Shown: positions 2,028-34,992 of the stretch, one piece after another
How positions within the stretch are numbered: position 1 is the first letter of the stretch
How the letters are laid out: every line of letters starts with the position of its first letter
Origin: Lachnospiraceae bacterium
GTDB lineage: Bacteria; Bacillota; Clostridia; Lachnospirales; Lachnospiraceae
NCBI GenBank assembly: GCA_014239155.1
Contig: JAAZZQ010000016.1
Coordinates: 1 to 34,992 of the forward strand
DNA length: 34,992 nucleotides
Reading direction: 5' to 3'
Notes under the pieces: model-generated
Seen by the model: the letters and a program-made list of their open reading frames with translations, nothing else
Databases searched by the model: none
Told to the model about the DNA's origin: nothing
Program-made: the position numbers and the translations under genes

Positions 2028-4175
2028 ATGAAAAGAATAATTGTGATTATTTTAGTGGTGCAAAGTTTTTTACTTACTATTGTGGGTTTACAAGTTTTAA
2101 AAAATATAAATTATATAGAGCTTCTATATCACAACAAGAAAGCTGTTTTGATTAGGGCTGATAACGGAAAGAATAATAAAGATGCAGCAGATGAATTAAT
2201 TTCTTTTATGAATGATCAGAAAATAAGCCAGAATATAACAATTTCTAAATATGTATATATAAATGATGATAACTTGGTAATTTATACAAATGATCTCTCA
2301 CTTGATGGGAAAATAAAACTTACTTTTAAAAATCATTTTTCTACTGATATGTTTCTTGCTAATTATGATAGCGGCAATGAAAATCAAATAGAAAAATTTT
2401 ATATGTTTGTTCCAAAACTCAAAGTGACAATCTACCCATTAACACAGGTTCAGAAGGTGGGGGTGGATGGCATTTACTATATTACAGGAGAGGGTGCCAG
2501 AAAAATTATTGCAGACATTAATAATGGAATCGGATACGCAGAAGTATACAATGAATATAATCCCAATATAAAAGCTTATTTGGAAGGCAGTATACAATTA
2601 ATTGTTTGTGTGGGGATGACAACACTTATTTTGGTGGTGATTATGGTGCATTATACAATAAAATCCGGAAAAAAGATAGGGGTTTTAAAGATGCATGGTT
2701 TCTCATCATTAGAAATAATTCAAAATATATTTAAAGAGTTTTATAAGATGCAATTAATCGTGTTATTAATTGGATTGCTGGTTTCAGCTGGCTATGGAAT
2801 CTATCAATATGGAGAAGATTATATTGTTACAATATGTAAAGGATACTTAATATCTTTCTTGCTGACTATTTTTATAAATTGTATTGTTGTATTTTGTGTT
2901 CTTTTTTTACAAATTAAATTGAGGAACATTGTTCTTTTGATTAAAGGAAAAAGACCTTTTGGAGTAATATTTGGGTCCTATATTTTTTTGAAATATGTTT
3001 TTTTTACTACTTTAATTATTGGCGGAATCAATTTAATTTATCAGATACAATATTTACAGATTCAGTATGATAATTTGGATATATGGAAAAAGGCAAAGGA
3101 TGTTTATGCCATCAACTTAAATTATATTGGAGAGTCACGAGATTCAGAAATTAAATTGAAACAGTTTTATGATTTGATAAATCAGGGTGGGGGATTTCTG
3201 ATCGACGCACAAAATTATGTGATGGTGGATGAAAAACATCATTTATATGATTATAATGCTCCGGGAGAGGAAAGTTATTATGATCCATATGGAAGGACTA
3301 TTACAGTCAATGAGAACTATTTAAAACAAAATGCAATTACATGCAATGGAAGTACTGAGTTTATTTTGTCTCAAATTGATAATAGTGATGATGTATGTAA
3401 TATTTTAGTGCCATTGAACCTAAAAAAGTATGAAGATAAAATACAAGAGCGTTTTTTGGAGGATTTTTATTTTAAGAAGATAGAAGTGGAAAACATTTAT
3501 AATAAAGAAGAAGGAGGCGTATTAAACAATACATCGAAAAACGAATTAAAATTAAATATTATATATATAGATGAAAATCAGGAGTATTTCGCATACTCAA
3601 ATATTGAACAAAATAATGGCTGTAAGATTATCAATCCTATTGTAGTTTTGGAGACGGGGAATGTAGATTATAGCTACTATTTGTCATATTTATCTAGGTG
3701 CGTTTTCTTTAAATATCAAGGAATTGATGTGTTTGATTATTTAACACCATTAATTAAAGAGGCAGATGTTTTATCAGAGATTCAAAGTGTTACAGCACTA
3801 TATGACAATCATGGAAAACAGATTTATAATTTGGAAGTGCGTATGAATTGTGCGGTTATAACAATTTTTGTGATGATAGGGATATTTGTTATCATTGGAT
3901 TTGTAATAGTTTCTGCTTATTATCAGGAAAAGAAATATCAAATTTATATTAAAAAGCTTTTTGGATTTGGTCTGATACAAAGAATCAATAAATTTTTAGC
4001 AGTATTGTGTTTGTTTGATATAATTATATTAGGTGTTGTAAAATTATATCAAGATAGTATGCTTGTCTTAGTTTTTGGCGGTTTTATTGTATTGACAGAC
4101 TTGACTATGATATTGATAGAGGCAAAACGATTAGACGAAAAAAATTTTAATATTATTATAAAGGGGGAGCATTGA
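2028..4175 (+). CDS. Bacteriocin-associated integral membrane protein (lactococcin 972 transporter/immunity permease)
   Basis: A 715-residue membrane protein of the DUF1430 type that accompanies lactococcin-972 peptides. ATG 2028 is chosen because the alternative TTG at 1983 lies inside the terminator hairpin. One N-terminal membrane segment is followed by a ~150-residue extracytoplasmic part. A cluster of four helices comes next (roughly residues 185-335), then a second large extracytoplasmic domain and three C-terminal helices (about 620-710). This FtsX/MacB-like duplicated layout fits an ABC permease that works with the ATPase encoded next. The 3' end overlaps the ATPase start by one base. 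Known relatives are annotated as immunity or export components. The direction of transport cannot be read from the sequence. Confidence 0.8.
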   Translation: MKRIIVIILVVQSFLLTIVGLQVLKNINYIELLYHNKKAVLIRADNGKNNKDAADELISFMNDQKISQNITISKYVYINDDNLVIYTNDLSLDGKIKLTFKNHFSTDMFLANYDSGNENQIEKFYMFVPKLKVTIYPLTQVQKVGVDGIYYITGEGARKIIADINNGIGYAEVYNEYNPNIKAYLEGSIQLIVCVGMTTLILVVIMVHYTIKSGKKIGVLKMHGFSSLEIIQNIFKEFYKMQLIVLLIGLLVSAGYGIYQYGEDYIVTICKGYLISFLLTIFINCIVVFCVLFLQIKLRNIVLLIKGKRPFGVIFGSYIFLKYVFFTTLIIGGINLIYQIQYLQIQYDNLDIWKKAKDVYAINLNYIGESRDSEIKLKQFYDLINQGGGFLIDAQNYVMVDEKHHLYDYNAPGEESYYDPYGRTITVNENYLKQNAITCNGSTEFILSQIDNSDDVCNILVPLNLKKYEDKIQERFLEDFYFKKIEVENIYNKEEGGVLNNTSKNELKLNIIYIDENQEYFAYSNIEQNNGCKIINPIVVLETGNVDYSYYLSYLSRCVFFKYQGIDVFDYLTPLIKEADVLSEIQSVTALYDNHGKQIYNLEVRMNCAVITIFVMIGIFVIIGFVIVSAYYQEKKYQIYIKKLFGFGLIQRINKFLAVLCLFDIIILGVVKLYQDSMLVLVFGGFIVLTDLTMILIEAKRLDEKNFNIIIKGEH

Positions 4176-10017: not shown

Positions 10018-13000
10018 TTGGACAAATACGAATACAAAGTTCGTTCAGAAGAAATTTCAAATTTGATCGAACAGGAAAAATATACAGAAGCCGTAAAAAT
10101 AGCAGATACGATTGACTGGAGAAGAGTTAAGAGCGCGTCGATGCTGTTAAAAATTTCGGTATTATATAGAATCAACAGACGAAATGAAGAGGCTAGGGAA
10201 GTGTTGATGCTGGCGTATGAACGTTATCCTGCAAACCGTTCTGTTGTGTATTCCCTTTGTGAATTATCAATTGAGTTAGATGATGTTGTGTCAGCGATTG
10301 AATATTATAAACAGTTTGTAAAGTTGGCGCCAAAAGACAATGGCGTATTTACGCTTCGATATCGGATATTGGAAGCGCAAGAGGCAAGTCTTGAAGAGCG
10401 AATTGAGATTCTTGAAGAGTTAAAAAAGAAGGATTATCAGGAGGAATGGGCATATGAACTTGCCTATTTATATCATAGAGTAGGATTGTCTACAAAATGC
10501 GTGGAAGAGTGTGACGACATTATACTCTGGTTTGGAGATGGTCCGTATGTGATGAAAGCAATGGAGCTAAAGGCGGTCCATGTGCCACTTTCCAAATCAC
10601 AGCAGGAAAAGTATGAGACCATGCTGAATCATGCGTCGGACAATTATAGTGATGATACGGAGACAAATGGAAGTTATACTCAGGAGATGGATTCTGAGGA
10701 GGGATATGAAGTCGAAGACACAGAGTATTATCAGGATAATTATGCAGATGAAACATATGAAAGTACAGGGTATGAGCAGGAAAATTATCCGCAGCAATTG
10801 TATGATAATAGTGTTGGATATGATTCTCAGAGTTATCAAAATGAAGGATATGCAAACAGTGAATATGATACACAAGGTTATTCCAATGGAGCATATGCAA
10901 ACAATGAATATGATACACAAAATTATTCCAATGGAGCATATGCAAACACAGAATACAATACACAAGGTTATCCCAATGAAGGATATGAAAACAGTGGATA
11001 TGATACACAAGGTTATTCCAATGAAGGATATGAAAACAGTGGATATGATACACAAGGTTATTTCAATGAAGGATATGAAAACAGTGGATATGATACACAA
11101 GGTTATTCCAATGAAGGATATGAAAACAGTGGATATGATACACAAGGTTATTCTAATGAAACATATGAAAATAATGGATATAATATGCAAGATTATTCCA
11201 ATGAAGCATATGAAAATAGTGGATATGATGCGCAGGGCTATTCTAATGAGGGGTATGAAAACAGAGGGTATGATAATACACAAGGCTATTTGAATGAAGT
11301 ATACGAAAACGCGCAATACGATCAGGAAACTTATGCGCGTGAATCGTATAATACAGCCACATTTCCACAGGAGAGCTATTCTGATTATGGACAGAATGAT
11401 TATGTAGACGATGGTTATGCAAATATAAATTACTCCAATAAAAATAGTTATACTGGTGAATTTTATGTGGAGCAGACTTATGACGAAAATGGGAATTTAA
11501 TAGAAAATAGAAATGATACCAATCATTGGGAAGATTCTGGACGCGGCAAAGAACCAGATAAGAGCTATCGCAATGGGCTTTATTTGTACCAGAGTAATCC
11601 TGCACCTACTGCAAATTCAAGTGATATGAGTCAGTACAACACAATCAATCTTCAAAAAGTGGTTGCGGAGGGTATGAAAGAGGTGCTTGCGGATAATGAA
11701 GATGTGTTTGCAGAGGATAGGGAAAAATATAATTCTAGTGAAGATGTCAATAACATTGTTAGGCATACACAGGCATATGCCAATGTGCAAAACAGAGGCG
11801 GACAAGAGTCAGAAAGTATGGCATATACAAACAGTATTGCGCAGTTAGTGACAAGTGTATCGGAGGCTGCACCTGCCCCCAATACAGGGGCGATTCGCAA
11901 GGTTTATGTGCCGGGAAAAGATGCGCGCTTAATTAAGTCAGATTCTGATATAGAGGAACTACGATACACTACAGAGCAGTCTGTCAATGAAGAGCACAAT
12001 CGTATGGAGAATAATGAGGAGAATGTGTACCATAATCAAAATTCTTTAGAAGTAAGTGGGGAGTTGGGTGCCCAGATTACAGGTACAATGAATCTGAAAG
12101 ATGTGTTGGCAGAGTGGGAGCGAAAAAAGACAGAAAATGCGAAGAAGCATCAGGAGGAGATTAAAAAACGTGTTCTGACACAGACTGGTAAAATATTAGC
12201 AGATTTTGATAATTCGCTCAAGAGTGGCATATTGGGCGAAATTCAGCGGGAGGAGGAAGCCGCGCAGAAAAGAACGCCTCGCAAGGACAGATTTTTGGAG
12301 GCGGATGTAACGGGAGATATTCCGCAGAACCGCGCAAAACAAGTATCGGATGATGCGTTTGATGTGGAGTATAGGACAGAACAGACAAAAGGAAGAAAAG
12401 AGGAGTCTTTTGTAAGGGAGGAATATCAACCAGAACTTGAAAACACATTTGAACAGGAGTTAGAAATTGCTGAATCATCGGAGGAAAACAAAGCCAAGGG
12501 TGATTCCGCTTACATGTCGCAGACAAATGAGGAGATATGGGAATCCAACGATGGATATGAGACAGAGGGTGATTTGCGCGATAATGATAAATACACGCTA
12601 GAACAGGACTTACAAGACAATGCAACGTATTTTCCAGAAGAGGACTTAGAAAATAATACAGTGTATTTGTCAAAAGAGGATTTAGAAGACAATGCAGCGT
12701 ATTTTCCGGAGGAGAACATACAAAATGGTGAAACGTCAATTTCGGAACAAAATACAGAAGTCAGTGCAGGGTACACACAGGAATTAAATACAGAAGACTA
12801 TATATTAGAGGATAATATAGAACTGGAAAATGGTTATGTGGAGAAGAGTAATAGCACGGATTTACAGGCGGATGCGCAAGATATAGATGTAGAAGATGGT
12901 ACCTATTATGAGGAGGACAATAATGAATATCTGTTAGAAGGAGATGATGGCAACCTTGATGGATATCAGGCGAATGAGCGTTTAGATATAGAATCAGACA

Positions 13001-14169
13001 GTGATGCGTATAATGATATTTATCAGATAGAAGAGAATCCTATCGAAGATGTGACAGAAGACTACAATGACACACACGAAATTTATTCCTATGATGACAG
13101 CAATGAGTATATACAGGAATCAAAGGAAGAGATTGAGATAGAATATGCGGATTACGGATATGCAGAAGACGCGAATGGATATACACAAGAGCTGTATCCT
13201 GAAGAGACCTATGTTGCTTCAGATAGGAAAGAATATCAACAAAATTATCGGTATGATGAGAGTGAGCTTGATCCAGAGGATGCGGAGAGTATTGCCGAGA
13301 TGGCAAAAGAGGATGCCCTCAAGACGCAGGAGATTAAGATGAACACAGCGGATCTCAGCTCGCTTTCAGAGAAGATTGTCGCCACGACAAAAAAGGAAGC
13401 GCGTGGGGCAAAGCGTGAGGAACTACGCGAATTTACGGCAGAAGAGCAGACACTGTTTGAGAATTTTGCTGTCACTAAAAAGATTAAGAAGCAGATTATT
13501 TTTGCTCTGGAAAACATGACACTTACAGCTTACACTGGAAATGTTATTATCACGGGTGACGCGGGGTTAGATACAGTTAGAATGGCAAAAAATCTAATCA
13601 AAGAGTACCAAGTATCTGATGAGAGTTTTTCGGGGAGACTTGCGAAGATTACCGGCGAAAAAATCAATCAAAGAAATATCAAAGATATCTTTGAGAAATT
13701 GAATAATGGTGGTATTATAATAGAGAAGGCAAATGGTATGAGCGAGGAGAAGCTATATGAGATGGCGCTAAATCTCAATCAGGAAAGTCTTGGAGTTGTA
13801 GTCATTATGGAGGACACCAAAAAAGAGATTTCAAAACTTTTGCAGAAGCAAGCGATGATTACAGACTATTTTAATATTAGGATTGATTTGATGGAGATGG
13901 ATAATAATGCTCTGGTTGCCTACGCTAAAAATTATGCCTTGGCTTTGGAATATTCCATTGATGAGTTAGGTACACTTGCCCTTTACACAAGAATAGCAAA
14001 TATGCAGAGTGGAAATCATGTGGTGACAAAGGATGAGGTGAGGGACATCATAGATGAGGCAATTTGGAAATCCAGAAAGTCCAAGCTCAAAAATTTTGTG
14101 GATGTGCTATTCGCAAGAAGGTATGACAATGAGGACATGATTGTCCTCAAAGAAAGGGATTTTATATAA
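10018..14169 (+). CDS. Giant TPR, Tyr-rich repeat and degenerate AAA+ protein
   Basis: A 1383-residue protein starting at TTG 10018 with AGAGGTGATG upstream. Residues ~1-200 are TPR-like helical repeats. About 271-437 is a run of 15-residue units of the form SNEGYENSGYDTQGY. The middle is a very acidic, Tyr/Asp/Glu-rich, probably disordered region with a second set of 13-residue units near 855-900 (DLEDNAAYFPEE type). The last ~240 residues resemble an AAA+ domain of the SpoVK/CbxX group, but the Walker A position reads GDAGLDTVR without GK(S/T) and the Walker B position reads GGIIIEKA. It therefore probably does not hydrolyse ATP. No signal peptide or membrane segment is seen. It ends 18 bp before glgB on the same strand, so a link to glycogen metabolism or a polar scaffold is possible. 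Confidence 0.85.
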   Translation: MDKYEYKVRSEEISNLIEQEKYTEAVKIADTIDWRRVKSASMLLKISVLYRINRRNEEAREVLMLAYERYPANRSVVYSLCELSIELDDVVSAIEYYKQFVKLAPKDNGVFTLRYRILEAQEASLEERIEILEELKKKDYQEEWAYELAYLYHRVGLSTKCVEECDDIILWFGDGPYVMKAMELKAVHVPLSKSQQEKYETMLNHASDNYSDDTETNGSYTQEMDSEEGYEVEDTEYYQDNYADETYESTGYEQENYPQQLYDNSVGYDSQSYQNEGYANSEYDTQGYSNGAYANNEYDTQNYSNGAYANTEYNTQGYPNEGYENSGYDTQGYSNEGYENSGYDTQGYFNEGYENSGYDTQGYSNEGYENSGYDTQGYSNETYENNGYNMQDYSNEAYENSGYDAQGYSNEGYENRGYDNTQGYLNEVYENAQYDQETYARESYNTATFPQESYSDYGQNDYVDDGYANINYSNKNSYTGEFYVEQTYDENGNLIENRNDTNHWEDSGRGKEPDKSYRNGLYLYQSNPAPTANSSDMSQYNTINLQKVVAEGMKEVLADNEDVFAEDREKYNSSEDVNNIVRHTQAYANVQNRGGQESESMAYTNSIAQLVTSVSEAAPAPNTGAIRKVYVPGKDARLIKSDSDIEELRYTTEQSVNEEHNRMENNEENVYHNQNSLEVSGELGAQITGTMNLKDVLAEWERKKTENAKKHQEEIKKRVLTQTGKILADFDNSLKSGILGEIQREEEAAQKRTPRKDRFLEADVTGDIPQNRAKQVSDDAFDVEYRTEQTKGRKEESFVREEYQPELENTFEQELEIAESSEENKAKGDSAYMSQTNEEIWESNDGYETEGDLRDNDKYTLEQDLQDNATYFPEEDLENNTVYLSKEDLEDNAAYFPEENIQNGETSISEQNTEVSAGYTQELNTEDYILEDNIELENGYVEKSNSTDLQADAQDIDVEDGTYYEEDNNEYLLEGDDGNLDGYQANERLDIESDSDAYNDIYQIEENPIEDVTEDYNDTHEIYSYDDSNEYIQESKEEIEIEYADYGYAEDANGYTQELYPEETYVASDRKEYQQNYRYDESELDPEDAESIAEMAKEDALKTQEIKMNTADLSSLSEKIVATTKKEARGAKREELREFTAEEQTLFENFAVTKKIKKQIIFALENMTLTAYTGNVIITGDAGLDTVRMAKNLIKEYQVSDESFSGRLAKITGEKINQRNIKDIFEKLNNGGIIIEKANGMSEEKLYEMALNLNQESLGVVVIMEDTKKEISKLLQKQAMITDYFNIRIDLMEMDNNALVAYAKNYALALEYSIDELGTLALYTRIANMQSGNHVVTKDEVRDIIDEAIWKSRKSKLKNFVDVLFARRYDNEDMIVLKERDFI
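10828..11325 (+). repeat. 45-bp coding tandem repeats
   Basis: About eleven units of 45 bp inside the giant gene, several in the middle (about 10970-11150) nearly identical. The unit keeps frame, so copy number can change without breaking the protein. Long open frames on the opposite strand here are by-products of the repeat. Confidence 0.85.
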
Positions 14170-25003: not shown

Positions 25004-25143
25004 TTGTAACAGTTCAGATACCTTCACTGTTACAGGCAAAAATTCATACAAAATCGCCTTTGGCGATGAATTTTTGCTTGCAGCCACCACGCTTTCCTAC
25101 GGTATTTGCAGCACAGTGCAAATACCTGCTTGAACTGTTACAA
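25004..25143. repeat. 140-bp three-way-junction palindrome
   Basis: Outer arms TTGTAACAGTTCA (25004-25016) and TGAACTGTTACAA (25131-25143) are perfect. They enclose two perfect hairpins: GCAAAAATTCAT (25036-25047)/ATGAATTTTTGC (25066-25077), and GGTATTTGCA (25101-25110)/TGCAAATACC (25117-25126). The whole would fold as a cloverleaf in RNA or as a cruciform in DNA. It lies in the 478-base gap 24903-25380, 37 bp before the cas promoter. No coding sequence is seen in it. Confidence 0.75.
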
Positions 25144-25180: not shown

Positions 25181-25209
25181 TTGCAAAAAGTAGTATCTTG
25201 TAGTATTAT
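25181..25209 (+). promoter_or_regulatory. Promoter of the cas operon
   Basis: TTGCAA (25181-25186), 17-bp spacer, TATTAT (25204-25209). The predicted start near 25216 gives a 5' leader of ~165 nt before cas6 that contains the degenerate CRISPR repeat. Confidence 0.65.
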
Positions 25210-25243
25210 AACAATATCGAAGGAAAAATCTGGATTAAACTTC

Positions 25244-25272
25244 TATTAATAGAAACATTTATGTATTGAAAT
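25244..25272 (+). repeat. Solitary degenerate CRISPR repeat in the cas leader
   Basis: 29 nt that match the 30-nt array repeat at 26 positions: 14 identical bases ATTAATAGAAACAT, then TT in place of GAG, then 12 identical bases ATGTATTGAAAT. The complementary ACAT/ATGT arms and the 8-nt 3' handle ATTGAAAT are intact. It lies on the same strand as the array repeats and about 28 nt below the predicted transcription start. Confidence 0.85.
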
Positions 25273-25380
25273 AGTAATAAGTACAGGTTTTTTCTTTTAG
25301 TGCAAGTTTTGTTTAATCAAGTAAAAAGTATAGGTAGTAAAACAATAAAACTATAGACAAAAGGAAAGGATAAAACAAAT

Positions 25381-26085
25381 ATGGTAGTATACGAAATTAC
25401 AATAAAGATAGTTCTCTCGCAAGAAATTCCTGTGTCTTCAGCGAGTGAAACATTAGCGCGATATATAGATAGTTATTTAGTAAAGGATACACAGTTTGAA
25501 GTACTACATAAAAAAAATACGATCAAAGGATACTGTTTTGATATGCCGTCTAAGATTGAAAAAGGAATGAAAGTATATAAGAGCGATGAAATCTATCAGT
25601 TTCGTATTAGAACTGTAAATCAAGAATTAATGTCCTATTTAATGGAAGGTATTGCAGACCACAAGACAAATGCTGTGAAGGGATTATCAAGAACTGTCAA
25701 GCAAATACCACACAAACCAATTGCATCTGTATACACATTGACCCCGTGTGTAATCAGGACTGCCGACAATAAAGGTTATTGGAGAGATTGTATGAGTTTT
25801 GAAGAATTTGAGCGGGAACTCTGTGCAAGTTTAATTCACCAATATGAACGTTATACTGGTGAGGAAGTGGAAAAAAACGTTGCACTCTATGACCAGATTG
25901 AATTAAAGAGCAAGTGCGCCATTGGCGTAACATACAAGGGGATCACGATGTTAGCGGACAAGCTTGCTATGCAGGTATCTGACAATGAGACTGCACAGAA
26001 AGTTTTGTATTTTACATTGGCAAATTCGATTGGCTGCATGGGCTCAAGAGGAATGGGCTTCCTTGCGTATCGGTTTGTAAATTGA
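25381..26085 (+). CDS. cas6: CRISPR-associated endoribonuclease Cas6
   Basis: A 234-residue Cas6 that cuts the pre-crRNA within each repeat. Two ferredoxin-like halves are visible. The N-terminus carries the family features VSSASETLARYID and FEVLHKKNTIKGYCFD. The C-terminus has the glycine-rich RNA-binding loop NSIGCMGSRGMGFLAYR. It is the first gene of the type I-B operon. The ATG has GGAAAGGA upstream. Its own mRNA leader carries a repeat-like site (25244-25272), so it may cut its own transcript. Confidence 0.9.
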   Translation: MVVYEITIKIVLSQEIPVSSASETLARYIDSYLVKDTQFEVLHKKNTIKGYCFDMPSKIEKGMKVYKSDEIYQFRIRTVNQELMSYLMEGIADHKTNAVKGLSRTVKQIPHKPIASVYTLTPCVIRTADNKGYWRDCMSFEEFERELCASLIHQYERYTGEEVEKNVALYDQIELKSKCAIGVTYKGITMLADKLAMQVSDNETAQKVLYFTLANSIGCMGSRGMGFLAYRFVN

Positions 26086-26125: not shown

Positions 26126-27913
26126 GTGTTATATGATGCAATAAAAGTTTTTGAAAAAAAGCGAAATGCGGTAGCGGAACGTTTTTTTTCAGAGGAAGCA
26201 ACTGCGCTAGAGTGCAGAACAAAGTTGTTGGTTGACAATTATATTCCAAAAGATGGGACTTATATTTTAATTACAATGGATGCAGATTTTCGATTGGAAG
26301 CACCTTTGGAAATTAAGTATGACCAAAAAAATGATGTGTTGAAGGGAAGTACAGAACCTTGTTTTAACTATGTGCGTTATCTGGATTACAACAGCAAATT
26401 AATTGAGATGAATAAGCCCATTGATACAAAAAAGGTAATTCATTCCAATCAGATATATGCTTTTTTTATAAAGAAGGAAAGTATAGTTGAAAAAAAGTTG
26501 ACAGTAGATGTTGTTGATGGGTATTATAACACATTGTCTGCACCTGAAACCAAGTATAAAGGCAAGGGAAAGAAATTGTATCAGCAGACAGCAGAAGAAC
26601 TTGGAGAACCAGATTATGAAACATTAGAGAAAATACGTGCATGGATTCAAGATTGGATTGCAAATCCTGAGAAGTTACCAATTGATGTTACTGGCAAAGA
26701 TTATCTAAAACTGTTTTTTGTCTATTTAGATAAAAAACGTACCAAAGAACTATTTGAACAAGAGAATCAAAGATATGTCATTCCTAATATATACAATAAC
26801 AATGATTATAATATTGAAGTAAATGATACTATTTTAGGAATGCCAAGCAACAATTTGGGACTGAATGCCAAAAAGCCATTTCTGGAAAATAAACAGCGAA
26901 AAACACCAGCGCCATATCTACTTGATAGGGAACAAGTTCTGTTACAAAGTCAGTTCTTTGATTATCTATGGGGACATGCCTGCAAGGGAAATGTAAATGT
27001 GTATATTGATTTGGACGAGGAAGAATTTTATGCAATTCGAGATAGAGATGAAAATATTCCTCTGATAAAAAATGGTTTGTTTCTTCGGATTAAAAAGGGA
27101 AAAGAAGTTGAGATATTGGATTGGGATATTGTGATGGACGTTAGCCCAAATCTAACACCAATTTTTGATTTTAAGCCGATTGTCAAGGGGCAAATAGAAG
27201 GGAAAAACTATGGCAAATGCGATAGAACAGCCCAGTTGTCCGCGGTGATTGACGAAGTGTTTTTTGACAAATATTTAGGCTTTAACTATTTTACAGAGGC
27301 GCAGGATTTACCACAAATGGATAGCAAGCTAAAATATATTTTGCTTACCTATCGCAGCAGAATCTTTTCATGGCTGTATAAAACACCACAGTGCGATATG
27401 AAAGCGATTTTATCCGAAATGGCACTAAAACTAATCAGCAATAAAATTGCAAATGGGTATTATGGCCGTGCGCGTGAGCAGCTAAATTTGCTGCTTTCTT
27501 TAGAGGATTATTTGAATGGCAATCAAGAGAAGGAGGAGCTTATGAAGATTGTGCAAGATAATTTTAAAAAACATATTGATTCAAAGGAGGAATGGAATTT
27601 TAATGACGAAGAGTATTACTATGCAGTGGGGCAGTTAATTTATTATTTTCTGTCAAAATCCAAGTCTGCCAAGAAGCCTTTTTCAATGGCAAATCAGTTT
27701 TTAAATGCAGAAAATGACGTGCTTATCAAGGACAAAATTTGCCAGATGTTTAAGCGCTATGACCACGCGATAGATTTGGAAAAAGACAGCAGGGCAAAAA
27801 ATGTGATTCACCATGTTTTAATGTATGAACCAACATGCAAAAAAGTAATGCAGCGGGAATTGATTGCAGGATTGACAGCAGACAGCGCATTTTATGTAAA
27901 AAAAGAAGAATAA
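26126..27913 (+). CDS. cas8b: Type I-B CRISPR-associated protein Cas8b (Csh1-like)
   Basis: A 595-residue protein in the position of the large subunit of the I-B Cascade complex, which recognises the PAM and the start of the target duplex. The start is GTG 26126 with GGAGGG upstream. The sequence is highly diverged, as usual for Cas8. The C-terminal half is helical (AILSEMALKLISNKIANGYYGRAREQ in two parts) and resembles the small-subunit-like domain that Cas8b carries at its end. The assignment rests on size, place between cas6 and cas7, and general resemblance to Csh1-type proteins. No separate Cas11 gene is seen; an internal start producing Cas11 from the 3' part is known in I-B systems. 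Confidence 0.82.
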   Translation: MLYDAIKVFEKKRNAVAERFFSEEATALECRTKLLVDNYIPKDGTYILITMDADFRLEAPLEIKYDQKNDVLKGSTEPCFNYVRYLDYNSKLIEMNKPIDTKKVIHSNQIYAFFIKKESIVEKKLTVDVVDGYYNTLSAPETKYKGKGKKLYQQTAEELGEPDYETLEKIRAWIQDWIANPEKLPIDVTGKDYLKLFFVYLDKKRTKELFEQENQRYVIPNIYNNNDYNIEVNDTILGMPSNNLGLNAKKPFLENKQRKTPAPYLLDREQVLLQSQFFDYLWGHACKGNVNVYIDLDEEEFYAIRDRDENIPLIKNGLFLRIKKGKEVEILDWDIVMDVSPNLTPIFDFKPIVKGQIEGKNYGKCDRTAQLSAVIDEVFFDKYLGFNYFTEAQDLPQMDSKLKYILLTYRSRIFSWLYKTPQCDMKAILSEMALKLISNKIANGYYGRAREQLNLLLSLEDYLNGNQEKEELMKIVQDNFKKHIDSKEEWNFNDEEYYYAVGQLIYYFLSKSKSAKKPFSMANQFLNAENDVLIKDKICQMFKRYDHAIDLEKDSRAKNVIHHVLMYEPTCKKVMQRELIAGLTADSAFYVKKEE

Positions 27914-27990
27914 AATGGTTTTTGCTGAAAGGTATTGAAAAATAGTATAGATTTTATAAGTCTATCAACAGGAAATGGAGGAAAGTAAAA

Positions 27991-28941
27991 ATGATGAGAC
28001 AAAGAGTGTATGGTGTGATGGGCATTTCGTCAATTATGGCAAATTGGAATGCTGATTTTAGCGGGTATCCCAAGACAACTTCTAAGGGGGAAACCTTTGG
28101 AAGCGACAAGGCATTTAAGTATCCAATGAAAAAGATGTGGGATGAAAATGGGGAAAAGGTTTTGTACATCAAATCTATAACAACAGTTCCGGACAAAAAG
28201 AACGGAGGAGTCAATGTTGTCCCCCAAACATTGTTGCAGCGTTATAAACAACTTTTTAATTCGGAGGATGTGGCAGATGCAAAGAAGGTTCTGGAAAACT
28301 TGTTTAATGCAGTTGATGTCAAAAATTTTGGCGCTACTTTTGCAGAGAAAGGTTGTAATATTGCCATAACGGGTGCTGTGCAGTTTGGTCAGGGTTTTAA
28401 TAAATACACGGATAGTATGCCGCAGGAACAGCAAATTCTCTCACCATTTCGGGATGCAAAAGCATCAGAGAAGAACAAAGATGGGGAGGAAGCGAAAAAT
28501 TCATCTCTTGGCACAAAGATTGTGAGTGATGAGGCACATTATTTTTATCCGTTTGTCATCAATCCCAAGACGTACAAAGAGTATATTGAATTGGGAGTTA
28601 CACAGGGATATACACAGGAAGATTATCAGAAATTTAAGGAGACTGCGTTGTGTGCAGCGACCTCCTTTGCAACCAATGCAAAGGCAGGCTGTGAGAATGA
28701 ATTTGGGCTGTTTGTTGAGACACAGGAAGATGTATATTTACCCGACCTTACCACATATATTCAGTTTGAACATAATGATAACGAAAAGAATATTATTCGG
28801 GTTCAGTGTGGGGATTTATTACAAGAGTTTGCCACAAAAATTAATGCGGTAGAAATTTATTATAATCCGTTTACAACAAAGTTAGAAACGGATATTTCAA
28901 ATGTAAAAATGTATCATATTTTTACGCGAAAGGAATTGTAG
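27991..28941 (+). CDS. cas7: Type I-B CRISPR-associated protein Cas7 (Csh2-like)
   Basis: A 316-residue backbone subunit that polymerises along the crRNA. The features are the N-terminal RRM strand (VYGVMGISSIMANWNADFSG), the central FGATFAEKGCNIAITGAVQFGQG segment that is typical of Csh2/Cas7, and SDEAHYFYPFVINP. ATG 27991 is followed at once by a second ATG; GGAGG lies upstream. It ends 6 bp before cas5. Confidence 0.9.
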   Translation: MMRQRVYGVMGISSIMANWNADFSGYPKTTSKGETFGSDKAFKYPMKKMWDENGEKVLYIKSITTVPDKKNGGVNVVPQTLLQRYKQLFNSEDVADAKKVLENLFNAVDVKNFGATFAEKGCNIAITGAVQFGQGFNKYTDSMPQEQQILSPFRDAKASEKNKDGEEAKNSSLGTKIVSDEAHYFYPFVINPKTYKEYIELGVTQGYTQEDYQKFKETALCAATSFATNAKAGCENEFGLFVETQEDVYLPDLTTYIQFEHNDNEKNIIRVQCGDLLQEFATKINAVEIYYNPFTTKLETDISNVKMYHIFTRKEL

Positions 28942-28947
28942 AATTGT

Positions 28948-29661
28948 ATGGAAATTTTGAAATTTACTTTGTCTGGAAAACAGGCAATGTTCAAAAAGCC
29001 AGAGGTTAACGCAATCTACTATTACACCTATGGACAGATTCATAAGCCTGCGCTTCTAGGAATGTTTGGTGCCATTTTGGGATACGGAGGATACAATCAG
29101 ATGAAAAAATCGGACAAGTATCCAGCATATTATCAAAAGTTAAAACCGCTGCAAATTAGCATTCTGCCCAATGCACAAAAGGGATATTTTGCAAAAAAAA
29201 TTGTGCATTTTAACAATTCTGTTGGCTATGCGTCAAGGGAACAAGGAGGCAATCTAATTGTGAAGGAACAATGGCTGGAGTATCCATCGTGGGATATTTT
29301 TGTACTGCTAGATTGTGACGAGGCAAACAAATTGGCAGACAGTATTATAGGACGAAAGTGTGTCTATATTCCATATCTGGGGAAAAATGATCATCTGGCA
29401 GATATAACACAAGTGTCAGTTCTTGAGGGAAGTGTCCAAGAAAATGCGGAACAGTTGAATTGTCTTTTTCCAAAATATATGGCAGAGATAGATACAGCTT
29501 TATTTGATGATGGCTTTAAATATGAAGAAGCACTTCCTATTGGACTTGACGAACAGACACATCAATATCAATTGCAACGATTTGTCTATACGAATATGAT
29601 TCTCTGCGATATAAAGAATACGGTCTGGGAAGTAGATGAAAAACAGATTGTGTTTTATTAA
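28948..29661 (+). CDS. cas5: Type I-B CRISPR-associated protein Cas5
   Basis: A 237-residue RAMP protein that caps the 5' handle of the crRNA. The N-terminal strand-loop LKFTLSGKQAMFKKPEVN and the G-rich PALLGMFGAILGYGG segment are typical of Cas5 of I-B systems. IGRKCVYIPYLGKNDHLADI is another Cas5b feature. It is closely packed between cas7 and cas3. Confidence 0.9.
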   Translation: MEILKFTLSGKQAMFKKPEVNAIYYYTYGQIHKPALLGMFGAILGYGGYNQMKKSDKYPAYYQKLKPLQISILPNAQKGYFAKKIVHFNNSVGYASREQGGNLIVKEQWLEYPSWDIFVLLDCDEANKLADSIIGRKCVYIPYLGKNDHLADITQVSVLEGSVQENAEQLNCLFPKYMAEIDTALFDDGFKYEEALPIGLDEQTHQYQLQRFVYTNMILCDIKNTVWEVDEKQIVFY

Positions 29662-29700
29662 GGAATTGTGTACATAAAACAGATAAAATAGGATAAAAAA

Positions 29701-32259
29701 ATGAAACTTACAGAAATATTAGATTTAACGTTACCAGTGTATGCACACAAAGATTCCAAGGTGGAGACGCAAAAGGAAACATTGCAGGAACATACAGATC
29801 GCTGTGAAAAGTATTTTATGCGCTTGTTAGATAAAGAAAAAATGCGTGCGGCATTTGACGCAATAGAGCCTGTTCTAACAGGCGATACAGATAAAAAGTA
29901 TACAGATTGGTTTTGGCAATCCATGAAAGATGTGATTTTATTTCATGATACTGGAAAAATAAACCCTGTATTTCAACAAGAAGCAATGGAAAATAAAGCA
30001 TTTGACAAGATAATAATACCTGGGTTGTATGAGAAAAATCATTCTGCACTTTCGGCATATATTTATTTGGATTATCATATTGCACAATTAGAGCAGATGT
30101 GCGAAAAAATAACAATCAATAGAGATATTTTAATAAAACTTTATGAAATTCTATGTATTAATGCATATCTAATTATGAAACACCACTCTAATTTATCTAA
30201 TTTTGATGAGTTTGTTGCTGCGATTCAGCCAGATGGCAAACTAAATAATATAGATATACAGATGATACAGCAGTGCTATTGTAAGATTTATAAGGGCAAG
30301 TATTCCAAACGGTCTGTTAAAAGTTATGTAGGGGTTCTGCGCAAGGCAAAAAAGGATTCAGAGGAACGCGGGTTTGCAAAATTTTCTTATGTTAGATTAA
30401 TGTTTTCTTTGCTGACAGCATGTGATTACTATGCGACAAATGAATATATGACAGGGACAGAGATAACAGCGTTTGGCTCTGTAAAAGAGTTGACGAATCT
30501 GAGAGAGACATTTGAAAAAACAAAAAGAATGCAAGAAATCAGAGCATTTTGTCCGGAAACTGCAATAGATAATGGCAAGGATATTAACTATCTAAGAACA
30601 ATGCTTTTTTATGAGGCAGAGCGAACTATCGTAAAAAATCATCAGGAAGATATTTTTTATTTGGAAGCGCCAACAGGTTGCGGAAAGAGCAATACTGGCT
30701 TGAATTGTAGTTTTCACCTCGCTGAGAATGACATGAGCAAAATTATTTATGTCTATCCTTTCAATAATCTGGTAGAGCAAAATAAAGCTAGTCTGGAGGA
30801 ACTATTTGCGGGAGAGAATCTTTTAAATAGAGTTGCAATTGTCAATTCTGTAACGCCAATTAAGCGCGATGAAAAAATGGCGGAAAATCCCGAGGAGTTT
30901 GAAGAAAATTGGACTGAGTGCAATTGGAGCAAGTCCTTGCTGGACAGACAGTTTTTAAACTATCCAATTTTATTGACAACGCATGTAAGTCTGTTTCAAA
31001 CGATGTTTGGAACAGAACGGGAAGCCGTGTTTGGATTTCATCAACTGGTAGGCAGCGTGATTGTGTTAGACGAGATTCAAAGTTACAAGAATGCTATCTG
31101 GACAGAAATTATGATGTTCTTACAGCATTATTGCAAATATTTGCAATGTAAAGTGTTGATTATGTCTGCTACACTGCCAAATCTTACCGTTTTAACTGGA
31201 AAAAGTGCGGGTGTCAAACATTTAATTGAAAATCGAGTATTTTATTTTTGTGATAAAAGATTTCAAAAACGCGTTCAGATTTCTTATGAATTGTTAAATG
31301 ACCAGAATTTTAATGAAGATGCATTGTATTTCCATATCAAAGAGCAGGCAAAGACAAGAAAAAAGATTTTGGTCGAGTTCATTCAAAAGAAAATGGCATA
31401 CCAATTTTTTGAAAGATTGGCATTCGACACAGAAATTGAGGCTGTGGTGGACCGCATGACTGGAGATGATAATTCTGTTGACCGAGAAAAAATATTAAGA
31501 CGTATTAAAACAGAAGATTTTTCGCAAAGTGGGTATATCTTGGTTGCGACGCAAGTAGTGGAAGCTGGAATCGATATTGATATGGATATTGGATACAAGG
31601 ATATTAGCACATTGGACAGCGAAGAACAGTTTATGGGAAGAATTAACAGAAATGCGCGCCGAGATGGTATTGTATACTATTTTGATCTGTATTCTGCAAA
31701 GCGCATTTATGGTGAAAATGATTACCGAATCAGTGAACAATTTACATTAAAAAATAGGAGTATGCAACAGCTTTTATTAGAAAAGAACTTTCAAGAATAT
31801 TATAAACAGGTTATGCAAGTTATTCAGAACAACCGAAATAATGCCTCCAATTTTGTTGGAATTGAAACCTTTGTAGGGGAAGTTGGTTCCTTAAATTTTC
31901 GGAAAGTTATGGAAAGAATGCAGTTGATAGAGAAGGACCAGTGGAGAATGTCTGTTTTTCTGGCACGGACTATCACCCTCACAGATGGAGAAGTTATTGA
32001 TGGCAGGGAACTGTGGAATCAGTACAAACAAATGCTTACGAATCCGCCAAAAGACTATGCACAATTTCGCGTTCAATTGTCCGAGATTAGCAGCAAACTA
32101 AATCTTTTTATCTATCAGATAAAGAAAAACTCAGATATTGTTTATACAGATAGAATCGGTGAAATTTACTATATAGAGCATGGAGAAGATTTTTTTGTCG
32201 ATGGCAGGCTGGATAAAAAGAGACTTGAAGAAAAAGGAGGTCTGTTTATTGACATCTAA
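29701..32259 (+). CDS. cas3: CRISPR-associated helicase/nuclease Cas3
   Basis: An 852-residue fusion of HD nuclease and superfamily 2 helicase that degrades DNA marked by Cascade. The HD domain shows H31, H82-D83 (HDTGK) and K-H-H near 161. The helicase has Walker A in APTGCGKS (~326-330), the DEIQ box at 457-460, SATLP at 489-493, VEAGIDIDMD and QFMGRINR at 643-650. All key residues are present. The 3' end overlaps the cas4 start by 11 bp, so the two are probably translationally coupled. Confidence 0.95.
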   Translation: MKLTEILDLTLPVYAHKDSKVETQKETLQEHTDRCEKYFMRLLDKEKMRAAFDAIEPVLTGDTDKKYTDWFWQSMKDVILFHDTGKINPVFQQEAMENKAFDKIIIPGLYEKNHSALSAYIYLDYHIAQLEQMCEKITINRDILIKLYEILCINAYLIMKHHSNLSNFDEFVAAIQPDGKLNNIDIQMIQQCYCKIYKGKYSKRSVKSYVGVLRKAKKDSEERGFAKFSYVRLMFSLLTACDYYATNEYMTGTEITAFGSVKELTNLRETFEKTKRMQEIRAFCPETAIDNGKDINYLRTMLFYEAERTIVKNHQEDIFYLEAPTGCGKSNTGLNCSFHLAENDMSKIIYVYPFNNLVEQNKASLEELFAGENLLNRVAIVNSVTPIKRDEKMAENPEEFEENWTECNWSKSLLDRQFLNYPILLTTHVSLFQTMFGTEREAVFGFHQLVGSVIVLDEIQSYKNAIWTEIMMFLQHYCKYLQCKVLIMSATLPNLTVLTGKSAGVKHLIENRVFYFCDKRFQKRVQISYELLNDQNFNEDALYFHIKEQAKTRKKILVEFIQKKMAYQFFERLAFDTEIEAVVDRMTGDDNSVDREKILRRIKTEDFSQSGYILVATQVVEAGIDIDMDIGYKDISTLDSEEQFMGRINRNARRDGIVYYFDLYSAKRIYGENDYRISEQFTLKNRSMQQLLLEKNFQEYYKQVMQVIQNNRNNASNFVGIETFVGEVGSLNFRKVMERMQLIEKDQWRMSVFLARTITLTDGEVIDGRELWNQYKQMLTNPPKDYAQFRVQLSEISSKLNLFIYQIKKNSDIVYTDRIGEIYYIEHGEDFFVDGRLDKKRLEEKGGLFIDI

Positions 32260-32758
32260 TCATACACGAGTAAATGGAACGCTTATCAATTACTATTTCC
32301 ATTGTAAGAGACAATGTTATTTACACGGAAATCGATTCAATCTTGAGGACAATAGCGAACTGGTTCAGATTGGACGCGCAATTCATGAAGTGAAAGCAAA
32401 AGAAAGCGAGAACGCAGAAATTGCAATTGAGAATATTCGGCTGGATAAATTAACAGCCGAATATTTGACAGAAATAAAAAAGTCTGATGCGGATATTGAA
32501 GCCAGCAAATGGCAGCTTTATTATTACCTTAAAATACTAAAGGAGAAAGGTATTATTAGAAAAGGAAAGCTTGAGTTTGAGGAAAAAAATAAATCTAAGA
32601 AAGCGACAATGATTCTTGAACTGGGGGAGGCAGAAGAAAAACAATTAGAGCAGATTCAGGTGCAGATTGAAGAGCTGCTGCAATCTAATATTGTTCCAGA
32701 AGCTGTTGAGCGGGCGGGCTGTAAAAAGTGTGCATATTATGAGTATTGCTTTGTATAG
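32249..32758 (+). CDS. cas4: CRISPR-associated Cas4, RecB-like Fe-S nuclease
   Basis: A 169-residue Cas4 starting at TTG 32249, inside the end of cas3, with AAAGGAGGT 8 nt upstream. The Fe-S cysteines appear as CKRQC near the N-terminus and GCKKCAYYEYC at the C-terminus. The RecB part shows GRAIHE and KGKLEFEEKNKSKKATMILEL. Cas4 trims prespacers and selects those with a PAM, handing them to Cas1-Cas2. The I-B subtype of Cas4 uses the short KxxKK-type core seen here in place of a classic E-x-K. Confidence 0.9.
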   Translation: MTSNHTRVNGTLINYYFHCKRQCYLHGNRFNLEDNSELVQIGRAIHEVKAKESENAEIAIENIRLDKLTAEYLTEIKKSDADIEASKWQLYYYLKILKEKGIIRKGKLEFEEKNKSKKATMILELGEAEEKQLEQIQVQIEELLQSNIVPEAVERAGCKKCAYYEYCFV

Positions 32759-32792
32759 ATTTCAGAATCGTTTTGTTTTAGAAATTGTAGCA

Positions 32793-32821
32793 AAATAAAT
32801 GGTATAGATTGCGCAGGATAT
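32793..32821 (+). repeat. 29-nt motif before cas1, copy 1
   Basis: It matches 33868-33896 at 25 of 29 positions, with the 15-nt core ATTGCGCAGGATAT and its flank identical. It lies 38 bp before the cas1 start in the gap between cas4 and cas1. No clear promoter boxes were recognised in it. Confidence 0.7.
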
Positions 32822-32858
32822 GTTTTCAAAATCGTAAGAAAAAGGGGAAGCAGAAAAG

Positions 32859-33857
32859 ATGGGAAGTACAAGATATATTATGTCACAAGGGGAATTGACA
32901 CGCAAGGACAATTCATTATGTTTCCGCAGAGATGGAAAAAATGTCTATATACCAATAGAAAATACCAAAGAAATTTATTGCCTAAATGAAGTGAGTATTA
33001 ACACAAAGTTATTAGATTTTCTAGCTTCAAATCATGTTATAGTACATTTTTTTAACTATTATGGCGGATACAGTGGTACTTACTATCCAAGGGAGCAGTA
33101 TTGCAGTGGTAAACTTTTGATAAAACAAGTTCACGCTTACGAGAATCAGCGTATGGAGATTGCCAAGGCAATTGTACATGGGATTGGAGAAAATATCTAT
33201 GAGATTCTATATCACTATTACAAGCATGATAAAAAGGAAGTAAAGCAAACAGTTGATTGGATTCGAAAGGATTTTCACAAGAATGTAGATTTGTCAGAAA
33301 AAGTAACGGAGCTTATGTCAGTGGAAGGAGAAGTGTGGGCAAGATTTTATGCAAATTTTAAGTATTTTTTACCAGAGGATTTTATTATGAATAAGCGGGT
33401 GAAGCGCCCGCCTGATAATCCGATAAATGCATTGATTTCTTTTGGAAACACACTTCTTTATGCCAAGACAATCTCTGCTATTTATAGAACACATTTGGAT
33501 CAGCGAATTAGTTTTTTGCATGAACCATCAGAGGGGAGATTTTCATTAAGCCTTGATTTGTGCGAGGTGTTTAAACCAGTTATTGTCTATAGAACAATCT
33601 TTGAATTAGTAAACAACAGAAGATTGCAGGTGGAAAAGCATTTTGACAGAAAAGTCAATTACTGCTTACTTAACGAAGAAGGGCGCAAAATTTTTATAGA
33701 AGCTTTTGAACAACGATTAGAATCTGTATTTTATCATGAGCGTTTGAAACGCAAAATTACTTACCGGACAGCTATTAAATTAGATTGCTATAAATTGATT
33801 AAATTTATTTTGGAGGAAAAACGATTTATTCCATTTTCTATTAAAACGAATGTTTAG
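32859..33857 (+). CDS. cas1: CRISPR-associated integrase Cas1
   Basis: A 332-residue Cas1 that integrates new spacers. The metal ligands appear as E156 in SVEGEVWARFY, H221 in FLHEPSEGRFSLSLDL and D233/E236 in LDLCEVFKPV. The N-terminal beta domain begins GSTRYIMSQGELTRKDNSL. The ATG has AAAGGGGAAG upstream. It is separated from cas2 by 180 bp, wider than usual. Confidence 0.95.
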   Translation: MGSTRYIMSQGELTRKDNSLCFRRDGKNVYIPIENTKEIYCLNEVSINTKLLDFLASNHVIVHFFNYYGGYSGTYYPREQYCSGKLLIKQVHAYENQRMEIAKAIVHGIGENIYEILYHYYKHDKKEVKQTVDWIRKDFHKNVDLSEKVTELMSVEGEVWARFYANFKYFLPEDFIMNKRVKRPPDNPINALISFGNTLLYAKTISAIYRTHLDQRISFLHEPSEGRFSLSLDLCEVFKPVIVYRTIFELVNNRRLQVEKHFDRKVNYCLLNEEGRKIFIEAFEQRLESVFYHERLKRKITYRTAIKLDCYKLIKFILEEKRFIPFSIKTNV

Positions 33858-33867
33858 GAGTTGTACG

Positions 33868-33896
33868 AAATAAGTGATACAAATTGCGCAGGATAT
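33868..33896 (+). repeat. 29-nt motif before cas2, copy 2
   Basis: Second copy of the motif at 32793-32821, starting 10 bp past the cas1 stop. A hairpin GTAGCC (33916-33921) / GGCTAC (33928-33933) follows it in the cas1-cas2 gap. Confidence 0.7.
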
Positions 33897-34037
33897 TGCG
33901 TTTATGTTAAAAAACGTAGCCATAGCAGGCTACAACAAGACTTTTTAATAATTTTATATGTCTGTGCATTATGAAATTGGCAATCAGAAACAGCTAAGCA
34001 AAGTCAGTTATTTTTCTACAGCTTCTTAGGAGACAAT

Positions 34038-34337
34038 ATGAATAAGGAAAAGAAGAAAATCAATTATAACTATGCATTTGTTTTTTATGATGTTAATGAG
34101 AAAAGAGTTCAAAAGGTTTTTAAAGTTTGCAAGAAATATCTTTCCCACTTTCAGTTTTCTGTATTTCGGGGTGACATTACTCCATCCAAATTAATTGAAC
34201 TGGAAAATGCGTTGCAAAAGGTAATCAACCTAGAAGAAGATTTTATTTGTATTATTAAACTGATGAATGACAATGTGTTTGGAGAGGATATTATAGGCAA
34301 GCGAGATAAAGCGACTGGAGAGGATTTAATTTTATGA
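34038..34337 (+). CDS. cas2: CRISPR-associated Cas2
   Basis: A 99-residue Cas2, the dimeric core of the Cas1-Cas2 integrase. The ferredoxin fold starts with YAFVFYDVNEKRVQKVFKVC, with the conserved Asp in YDV, followed by FQFSVFRGDIT and IIKLMNDNVF. The ATG has TAGGAGAC upstream. It is the last cas gene before the leader and array. Confidence 0.93.
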   Translation: MNKEKKKINYNYAFVFYDVNEKRVQKVFKVCKKYLSHFQFSVFRGDITPSKLIELENALQKVINLEEDFICIIKLMNDNVFGEDIIGKRDKATGEDLIL

Positions 34338-34517: not shown

Positions 34518-34992
34518 GATTAATAGAAACATGAGATGTATTGAAATTTGCTGAACCTCCTTGAATCAGGTATTCCCAGTAGTGATTAATAGAAACATGA
34601 GATGTATTGAAATTGGATTGCTCCTGTGCGCCCTTCTCCGTTGGAATTGATTAATAGAAACATGAGATGTATTGAAATTCTAACTCTCCTCCGGGATAAT
34701 GTACTTCTAATGGATGGATTAATAGAAACATGAGATGTATTGAAATTTGTCCGGATTGTGGCTGCAAAGTTGCGAAAATAGATTAATAGAAACATGAGAT
34801 GTATTGAAATCCTATATAATTCATATTTAACATTTTTTATTTTCCTGATTAATAGAAACATGAGATGTATTGAAATGCTGATGTCTATGAATACATAAAG
34901 GCAATGGCGCGCGATTAATAGAAACATGAGATGTATTGAAATTCCTGCGGAATGGAGGATAGTAGGGTATGCAGAATTGATTAATAGAAACA
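34518..34992 (+). CRISPR. Type I-B CRISPR array, at least 8 repeats, cut by the window end
   Basis: Seven complete, identical 30-bp repeats start at 34518, 34584, 34649, 34717, 34781, 34847 and 34913; an eighth begins at 34979 and is cut after 14 bases. The repeat begins GATTAATAG and ends ATTGAAAT, the usual I-B 3' handle, with a small ACAT-GAG-ATGT stem. Spacers are 36, 35, 38, 34, 36, 36 and 36 bp and all differ. The leader is on the left, so the leftmost spacers are the newest. None of the spacers has an obvious match in this window. Confidence 0.98.

Follow-up and report, generated by a model that had tools for sequence, protein, structure and literature searches.

CreR RNAs (Liu et al. 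2023, Cell Host Microbe) resemble crRNAs and repress the cas operon of their own locus, whose promoter region they match in part (PMC12737573, PMC13131331). In these two sources, repression of the own cas operon by CreR is reported for types I-B, I-E and V-A (PMC13131331) and for type I and V-A (PMC12737573). A similar guide is CreA from the CreTA system of H. hispanica, which consists of one degenerate repeat (psi-R), a pseudo-spacer and a T-rich terminator, matches a promoter region and has a seed identified by mutation as nt 1-5 plus 7-11 (PMC8501985). As described there, one-repeat creA has lost its second repeat and ends in the T-rich terminator (PMC8501985).

The window analysed here, a stretch of 34,992 nt from a member of the Lachnospiraceae, harbors a comparable element in the leader of a cas operon. 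With CreR it shares a non-array repeat with an intact handle at the cas locus and a limited seed match in the cas leader, and with H. hispanica CreA the single degenerate repeat, the pseudo-spacer, a T-rich end and a seed of nt 1-5 and 7-11 (PMC8501985). In contrast to CreR, its target lies downstream of the guide gene, and the single repeat is combined with an enclosing stem. While H. hispanica CreA represses the RNA toxin CreT, cas6 comes first behind the target in the window; the haloarchaeal CreA PAM is TTC, whereas the window PAM is TCA, and CreA of H. hubeiense has two degenerate repeats, whereas no second one is detectable here. It is very likely, judged from the comparative evidence below, that the element is a CreR-type guide, which is predicted to repress its own cas operon. 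Such autorepression is known, while the enclosing stem is possibly a new part. A literature search covering reviews and CreTA papers found no CreR case from the Lachnospiraceae, although Liu et al. 2023 may list these loci.

Other CRISPR effectors likewise serve as repressors via limited pairing, as in the autoregulation of Cas9 by the long form of tracrRNA. The scaRNA of Francisella resembles the present guide in the same way (PMC9458426). Both are Cas9 systems that use a different RNA, unlike the I-B guide of the window.

The degenerate repeat and the cas operon

The CRISPR array of the window (34518-34992, + strand) contains seven copies of the 30-nt repeat GATTAATAGAAACATGAGATGTATTGAAAT. 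As it runs to position 34992, the end of the contig, and contig C55 of the source genome holds 40 further repeats (G000:C55:198-2997), both may be parts of one broken array. The degenerate repeat, 29 nt in length, is located at 25244-25272 on the + strand and reads TATTAATAGAAACATTTATGTATTGAAAT. In line with the sequence-only reading that preceded this analysis, comparison with the array repeat revealed that 26/30 positions are kept and that the differences are restricted to the first base and the loop (GAG to TT). The ACAT/ATGT stem is unchanged, and so is the 8-nt 5' handle ATTGAAAT (25265-25272, + strand), which is identical to the last 8 nt of the array repeat. By inference from CreA, Cas6 would be expected to cut between 25264 and 25265 (PMC8501985). 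A search with the pattern ATTAATAGAAACAT-N2-5-ATGTATTGAAAT gave eight matches in the window, compared to 0 expected from 100 shuffles, and a chance origin of the repeat was dropped on these grounds. The 4.57-Mb source genome contains 48 matches to this pattern, i.e. 40 on contig C55, seven in the window array and the degenerate repeat, which is thus the sole non-array match.

The repeat lies on the sense strand between the promoter-like site P1 and cas6, whose start at 25381 is 108 nt after the handle, as good as the roughly 110 nt first estimated. P1 (TTGCAA, 17 nt, TATTAT; 25181-25209, + strand) scores 9/12 in a consensus scan and has a presumed transcription start at about 25216. It had been called a good promoter; the site is indeed present, although chance alone would give 1.5 sites of this kind in the scanned stretch. 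Its hexamers and their spacing are identical at the related loci G016a and G016b, and G010 and G033 possess other promoter-like sites at comparable distance. About 40 nt upstream of P1, a palindromic, MITE-like element of approximately 136 bp (25005-25140) can be found, which has 34 matches in the source genome (self and partial matches counted) and, by eye, is bordered by the short direct repeat AACCTGTT and absent from the same place in G016a.

Among the genes behind the self-target, cas6 (25381-26085, + strand; TIGR01877, E 9.1e-18; PF01881) comes first. It is followed on the same strand by the remaining cas genes (26126-34337), encoding a protein at the cas8 position, a cas7-like protein, cas5b, cas3, a cas4-like protein, cas1b and cas2. 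The family matches of Cas5b and Cas1b agree with type I-B; those of the cas7-like protein are under the curated cut-offs, and that of the cas4-like protein is just under its cut-off. The 595-aa protein at the cas8 position (26126-27913) gave no NCBIfam or Pfam match at E 0.001 and is probably a divergent Cas8. Elsewhere in the window, a 1383-aa open reading frame (10018-14169) contains a block of 45-nt tandem repeats (10770-11309).

The self-target, its relatives and the PAM

The pseudo-spacer (psi-S; 25273-25299, + strand), whose 3' end is not defined, begins with AGTAATAAGTACAGG. Its nt 1-15 match the self-target AGTAAAAAGTATAGG (25320-25334, + strand) at 13/15 positions, and the target is preceded by TCA (25317-25319, + strand); a 36-nt protospacer would extend to 25355. 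As the mismatches are confined to positions 6 and 12, nt 1-5 and 7-11 pair, which corresponds to the seed published for CreA. In Cascade, every sixth crRNA base is flipped out. When the TCA PAM and this seed were both demanded, 0/500 shuffles gave an equally good site; when the match was scored without PAM, 5/1000 shuffled regions and 37/1000 shuffled window spacers did so. PAM plus seed, TCRAGTAANAAGTA, occurs once in the 4.57-Mb source genome, at the self-target. A reversed control pattern also occurs once, so that the single count is not rare by itself and it is the location that is telling.

The sequence-only reading had expected a target at the cas promoter and reported no convincing match there. 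The latter still stands: when both strands of the upstream 412 nt were searched for a P1 target, the best listed sites other than 25320 had at least five mismatches in 15. The expected position, however, does not hold in the window, where a PAM-flanked pseudo-spacer match lies downstream of the repeat (25317-25334), in the leader about 104 nt below the presumed P1 start. No clear second promoter was detected at the window target by the consensus scan, and bound Cascade may hence either be a roadblock or lie over a weak promoter. The target's first base is 61 nt from the cas6 ATG, and the + strand of 25320-25380 contains no ATG, GTG or TTG. This speaks against a CreT-like reading frame, i.e. 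a CreTA-type toxin gene under the targeted promoter, while a toxic RNA without reading frame between target and cas6 is possible.

Among 38 genomes of the genus, six contain a related cas6, at seven loci altogether. As the sequence-only reading had proposed, the region upstream of cas6 was inspected in these relatives, and a degenerate repeat precedes cas6 in 7/7 loci. Since G006 has a second one further upstream, the genus provides eight elements, seven of them distinct because G010 and G006_2 are identical. Together with 26 more distant loci, 34 elements or loci were scanned for TCA plus seed; L038 and L039, partial cas6 matches with stops, were left out. Ten of the 34 have a TCA-flanked target with perfect seed and five a target with one seed mismatch, one of these weak. 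Within the genus, the window, G016a, G033 and G006_1 belong to the former group and G016b, G010 and G006_2 to the latter, with G010 and G006_2 pairing at nt 1-10 only. At G012, the match is lost (three seed mismatches to the best TCA site), which would be explained by its leader, as this looks by eye like a G006_1-type upstream half joined to a G010-type downstream half. In other genera, with Cas6 proteins 27-39% identical, perfect-seed targets were found at G417, G055, G658, G587, G516 and G699 and a one-mismatch target at G549, each matched by 0-2/500 shuffles. A further one-mismatch site at G114 is weak (16/500 shuffles), and the remaining 18 distant loci showed no TCA site with fewer than two seed mismatches.

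All self-targets with a perfect or one-mismatch seed are on the + strand. At L030, L050, L051, L052, G006_1 and L045, the -35 hexamer of a good promoter starts 20-28 nt after the first base of the protospacer, and at L056 13 nt after it. With the hexamer 13-28 nt into the protospacer in these seven loci, Cascade would cover the -35 box there. The target of L033 is placed just below a -10 box, and at G016b the site TTTTCA-18-TATAAA spans the target. No good promoter stood out at the targets of L054 and L044 in the promoter scan.

Spacer and target change together. Between the window and G016a, the pseudo-spacer differs at nt 2, 13 and 15, and the target carries the same three changes; between the window and G016b, a change at nt 10 is mirrored in the target, while nt 2 of the G016b target has changed alone, with the spacer unchanged. 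Over 13 matching loci (G012, the weak G114 and the duplicate G006_2 omitted), position 6 is mismatched nine times and position 12 is mismatched 12 times, compared to 5/169 in the rest of nt 1-15 (13 positions). As these loci were picked for matching, the permutation result is descriptive only.

For the PAM, spacers from a G010 stretch, a G016 array and the C55 array were searched against the genus genomes, and the flanks of the matches were read. The six spacers with the best genus protospacers (E up to 3.2e-7) gave TCA twice, TCG twice, and TAA and AAT once each. Four weaker protospacers (E 1.2e-6 to 5e-6) gave GAG, GAG, CAT and TAG, two of them being unmatched at the PAM-near end. In viral contigs, one spacer has TCG in 21/21 matching contigs and a second one TTA in 5/5; as these contigs are related to one another, this evidence is worth two spacers. 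One of the three viral-contig scans was without match, and the C55 array, the only one compared with GenBank phages, had none there. These flanking sequences suggest that TCA likely works as a PAM. The ten best self-targets across loci all have TCA (10/10), which is partly built in because the scan required it, and a list compiled with any PAM gives TCA for the same ten. Perfect-seed sites with a non-TCA PAM occur in 4/34 loci (L028, L034, which is an array, L045 and L055).

The enclosing stem

The repeat is enclosed by a helix. Its 5' arm (GAAGGAAAAATCTG; 25219-25232, + strand) starts just below the presumed start site and pairs with the 3' arm (CAGGTTTTTTCTTT; 25284-25297, + strand), which corresponds to psi-S nt 12-25, is T-rich and may be the region in which a free guide RNA ends. 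The predicted fold has -17.3 kcal/mol (z -2.9), and 1/500 shuffles gave a helix as long as its 14 bp. Across the genus, the 5' arm partners a pseudo-spacer segment that begins at nt 9 or 12 and reaches at least nt 23, with stem lengths of 14 bp in the window clade, 13-16 bp in G010, G012 and G006 and 28 bp in G033 (0-11/500 shuffles as long). Psi-S nt 1-8 stay outside the main helix, as do nt 1-11 in the window clade and G010. At psi-S nt 12-23, 96/96 cells are paired in the eight elements (seven distinct), and changes on both sides of the stem occur at nt 14, 15, 16, 20, 21 and 22, in about three independent sequence versions. Stem partners were read from each element's own best helix, which favours pairing; the shuffles used the same maximum search. 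Three further T follow the 3' arm in G010, G006_2 and G012 and none in G006_1. A terminator scan by GC rule called no terminator in the leader. By eye, the stem was also dropped as a DNA target of the guide, as the reverse-complement match comprises psi-S 12-25 and does not cover the seed.

A second repeat after the pseudo-spacer was sought in 25290-25380, where the best ungapped match reaches 16/30 positions, equalled by 303/500 shuffles. The more distant relatives L033, L050, L051, L052 and L056 look two-repeat by eye. In this genus, the stem takes the place of the second repeat known from the commoner form, and it probably sets or protects the 3' end of the RNA. It thereby raises the question how one-repeat guides obtain their 3' end. 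No description of an enclosing stem around a creA or creR guide was found in the available portions of the CreA/CreR literature.

Proposed autorepression, alternative readings and further repeat elements

The element is best viewed as a CreR-type gene with one repeat, situated in a I-B cas leader that would be transcribed from P1. Cas6 could cut the degenerate repeat in this transcript, which would afford a guide composed of the handle AUUGAAAU and the pseudo-spacer. Cascade loaded with this guide would then recognise the PAM TCA and bind 25320-25334 through seed nt 1-5 and 7-11. As such pairing would be too short for full interference, Cascade would presumably stay in place and keep transcription from entering cas6 and the genes that follow. 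Hence, the operon could be kept repressed as long as free Cascade abounds and be released once array crRNAs or anti-CRISPRs take Cascade away; we infer this sensing role by analogy with published CreR.

The CreA/CreR-type reading, already put forward by the sequence-only reading, is strongly supported by the PAM-flanked seed target in the cas leader, the covariation of spacer and target and the repeat conserved before cas6 in the genus loci. The alternative that Cas6 cleaves the repeat in the leader of the cas mRNA and thereby limits this mRNA directly, without Cascade on DNA, was likewise envisaged there. It fits a sense-strand repeat with intact stem and handle between P1 and cas6, and with no clear second cas6 promoter in the window, cutting would hit the cas transcript; in fact, Cas6 cutting of its own mRNA leader would follow if the guide comes from that transcript. 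Yet, a cleavage site by itself leaves the PAM-flanked, covarying seed match unexplained, and at G033 and G006_1 a near-consensus promoter behind the target means that the main downstream transcript does not have to contain the element, which makes this alternative distinctly improbable. That the repeat is a stray or relic piece of an old array without function would agree with its changed loop, its single copy and the ectopic repeats elsewhere in the genome. The sequence-only reading had denied that it is a stray array end. Retention before cas6 in all seven genus loci and the covariation of spacer and target as well as of the stem speak against a relic, which is therefore barely conceivable.

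The stem itself invites another explanation, namely a Cas6-gated attenuator in which the uncut leader forms the stem and terminates, while Cas6 that binds or cuts in the loop prevents the stem and cas6 is transcribed. Its complete pairing at psi-S 12-23, the six positions with two-sided changes and the T-rich 3' arm are in keeping with this. However, A and T predominate in the stem, whose loop measures approximately 50 nt, the terminator scan was empty, a near-consensus promoter lies below the stem in G033, and relatives from other genera seem, by eye, to have two repeats and no stem of this kind. An attenuator acting in place of a guide thus appears highly improbable. A combination of both, in which the stem couples guide production to cas transcription, is unlikely but somewhat easier to imagine: the uncut leader would form a terminating hairpin that yields a free guide, and Cas6 on the repeat would permit read-through. 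If true, one leader would sense Cas6 and make a guide that senses free Cascade, and the downstream target would be a roadblock.

The CreR-type guide proposed here would constitute a testable autoregulation circuit for I-B systems of the Lachnospiraceae and relatives, with repeat, handle, seed, PAM and target named by nucleotide. In addition, the spacer-target pairs provide a search rule, i.e. a handle and a nearby TCA-flanked seed match with mismatches allowed at 6 and 12, by which such guides can be found in genomes without further data.

Several other repeat elements were observed. The source genome (G000) contains another ectopic repeat, whose stem is intact and whose handle, ATTGAAAC, is near-intact (G000:C41:111376-111409; L091 ~1877-1910); it is flanked by a sortase / Transposase_31 gene pair on one side and by an open reading frame that starts like a secreted protein on the other. 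This repeat is kept in three genomes (G000, G016:C5 and G022:C1). PAM plus seed of its pseudo-spacer have a single site in the genome, at a distance of 9 kb; as the control pattern is likewise present once, this match could be due to chance. Stretches of two repeats each, at least one of them degenerate, stand alone at G016:C49:11901-11982, G016:C18:46523-46599, G022:C96:778-867 and G013:C2:63079-63176. Finally, L024 of G006 (2222-3540) harbors two tandem guide elements with RelB/YoeB-type genes, families that were named on the L025 copies. The yoeB-like open reading frames of L024 encode 59 and 67 aa, compared to 87 aa in L025, which contains the leader of Lachnospiraceae bacterium COE1, a relative in which the element is likewise present. 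A perfect-seed target of the first element adjoins a near-consensus promoter before a yoeB-like open reading frame, and a guide linked to a protein toxin is possible at this locus.
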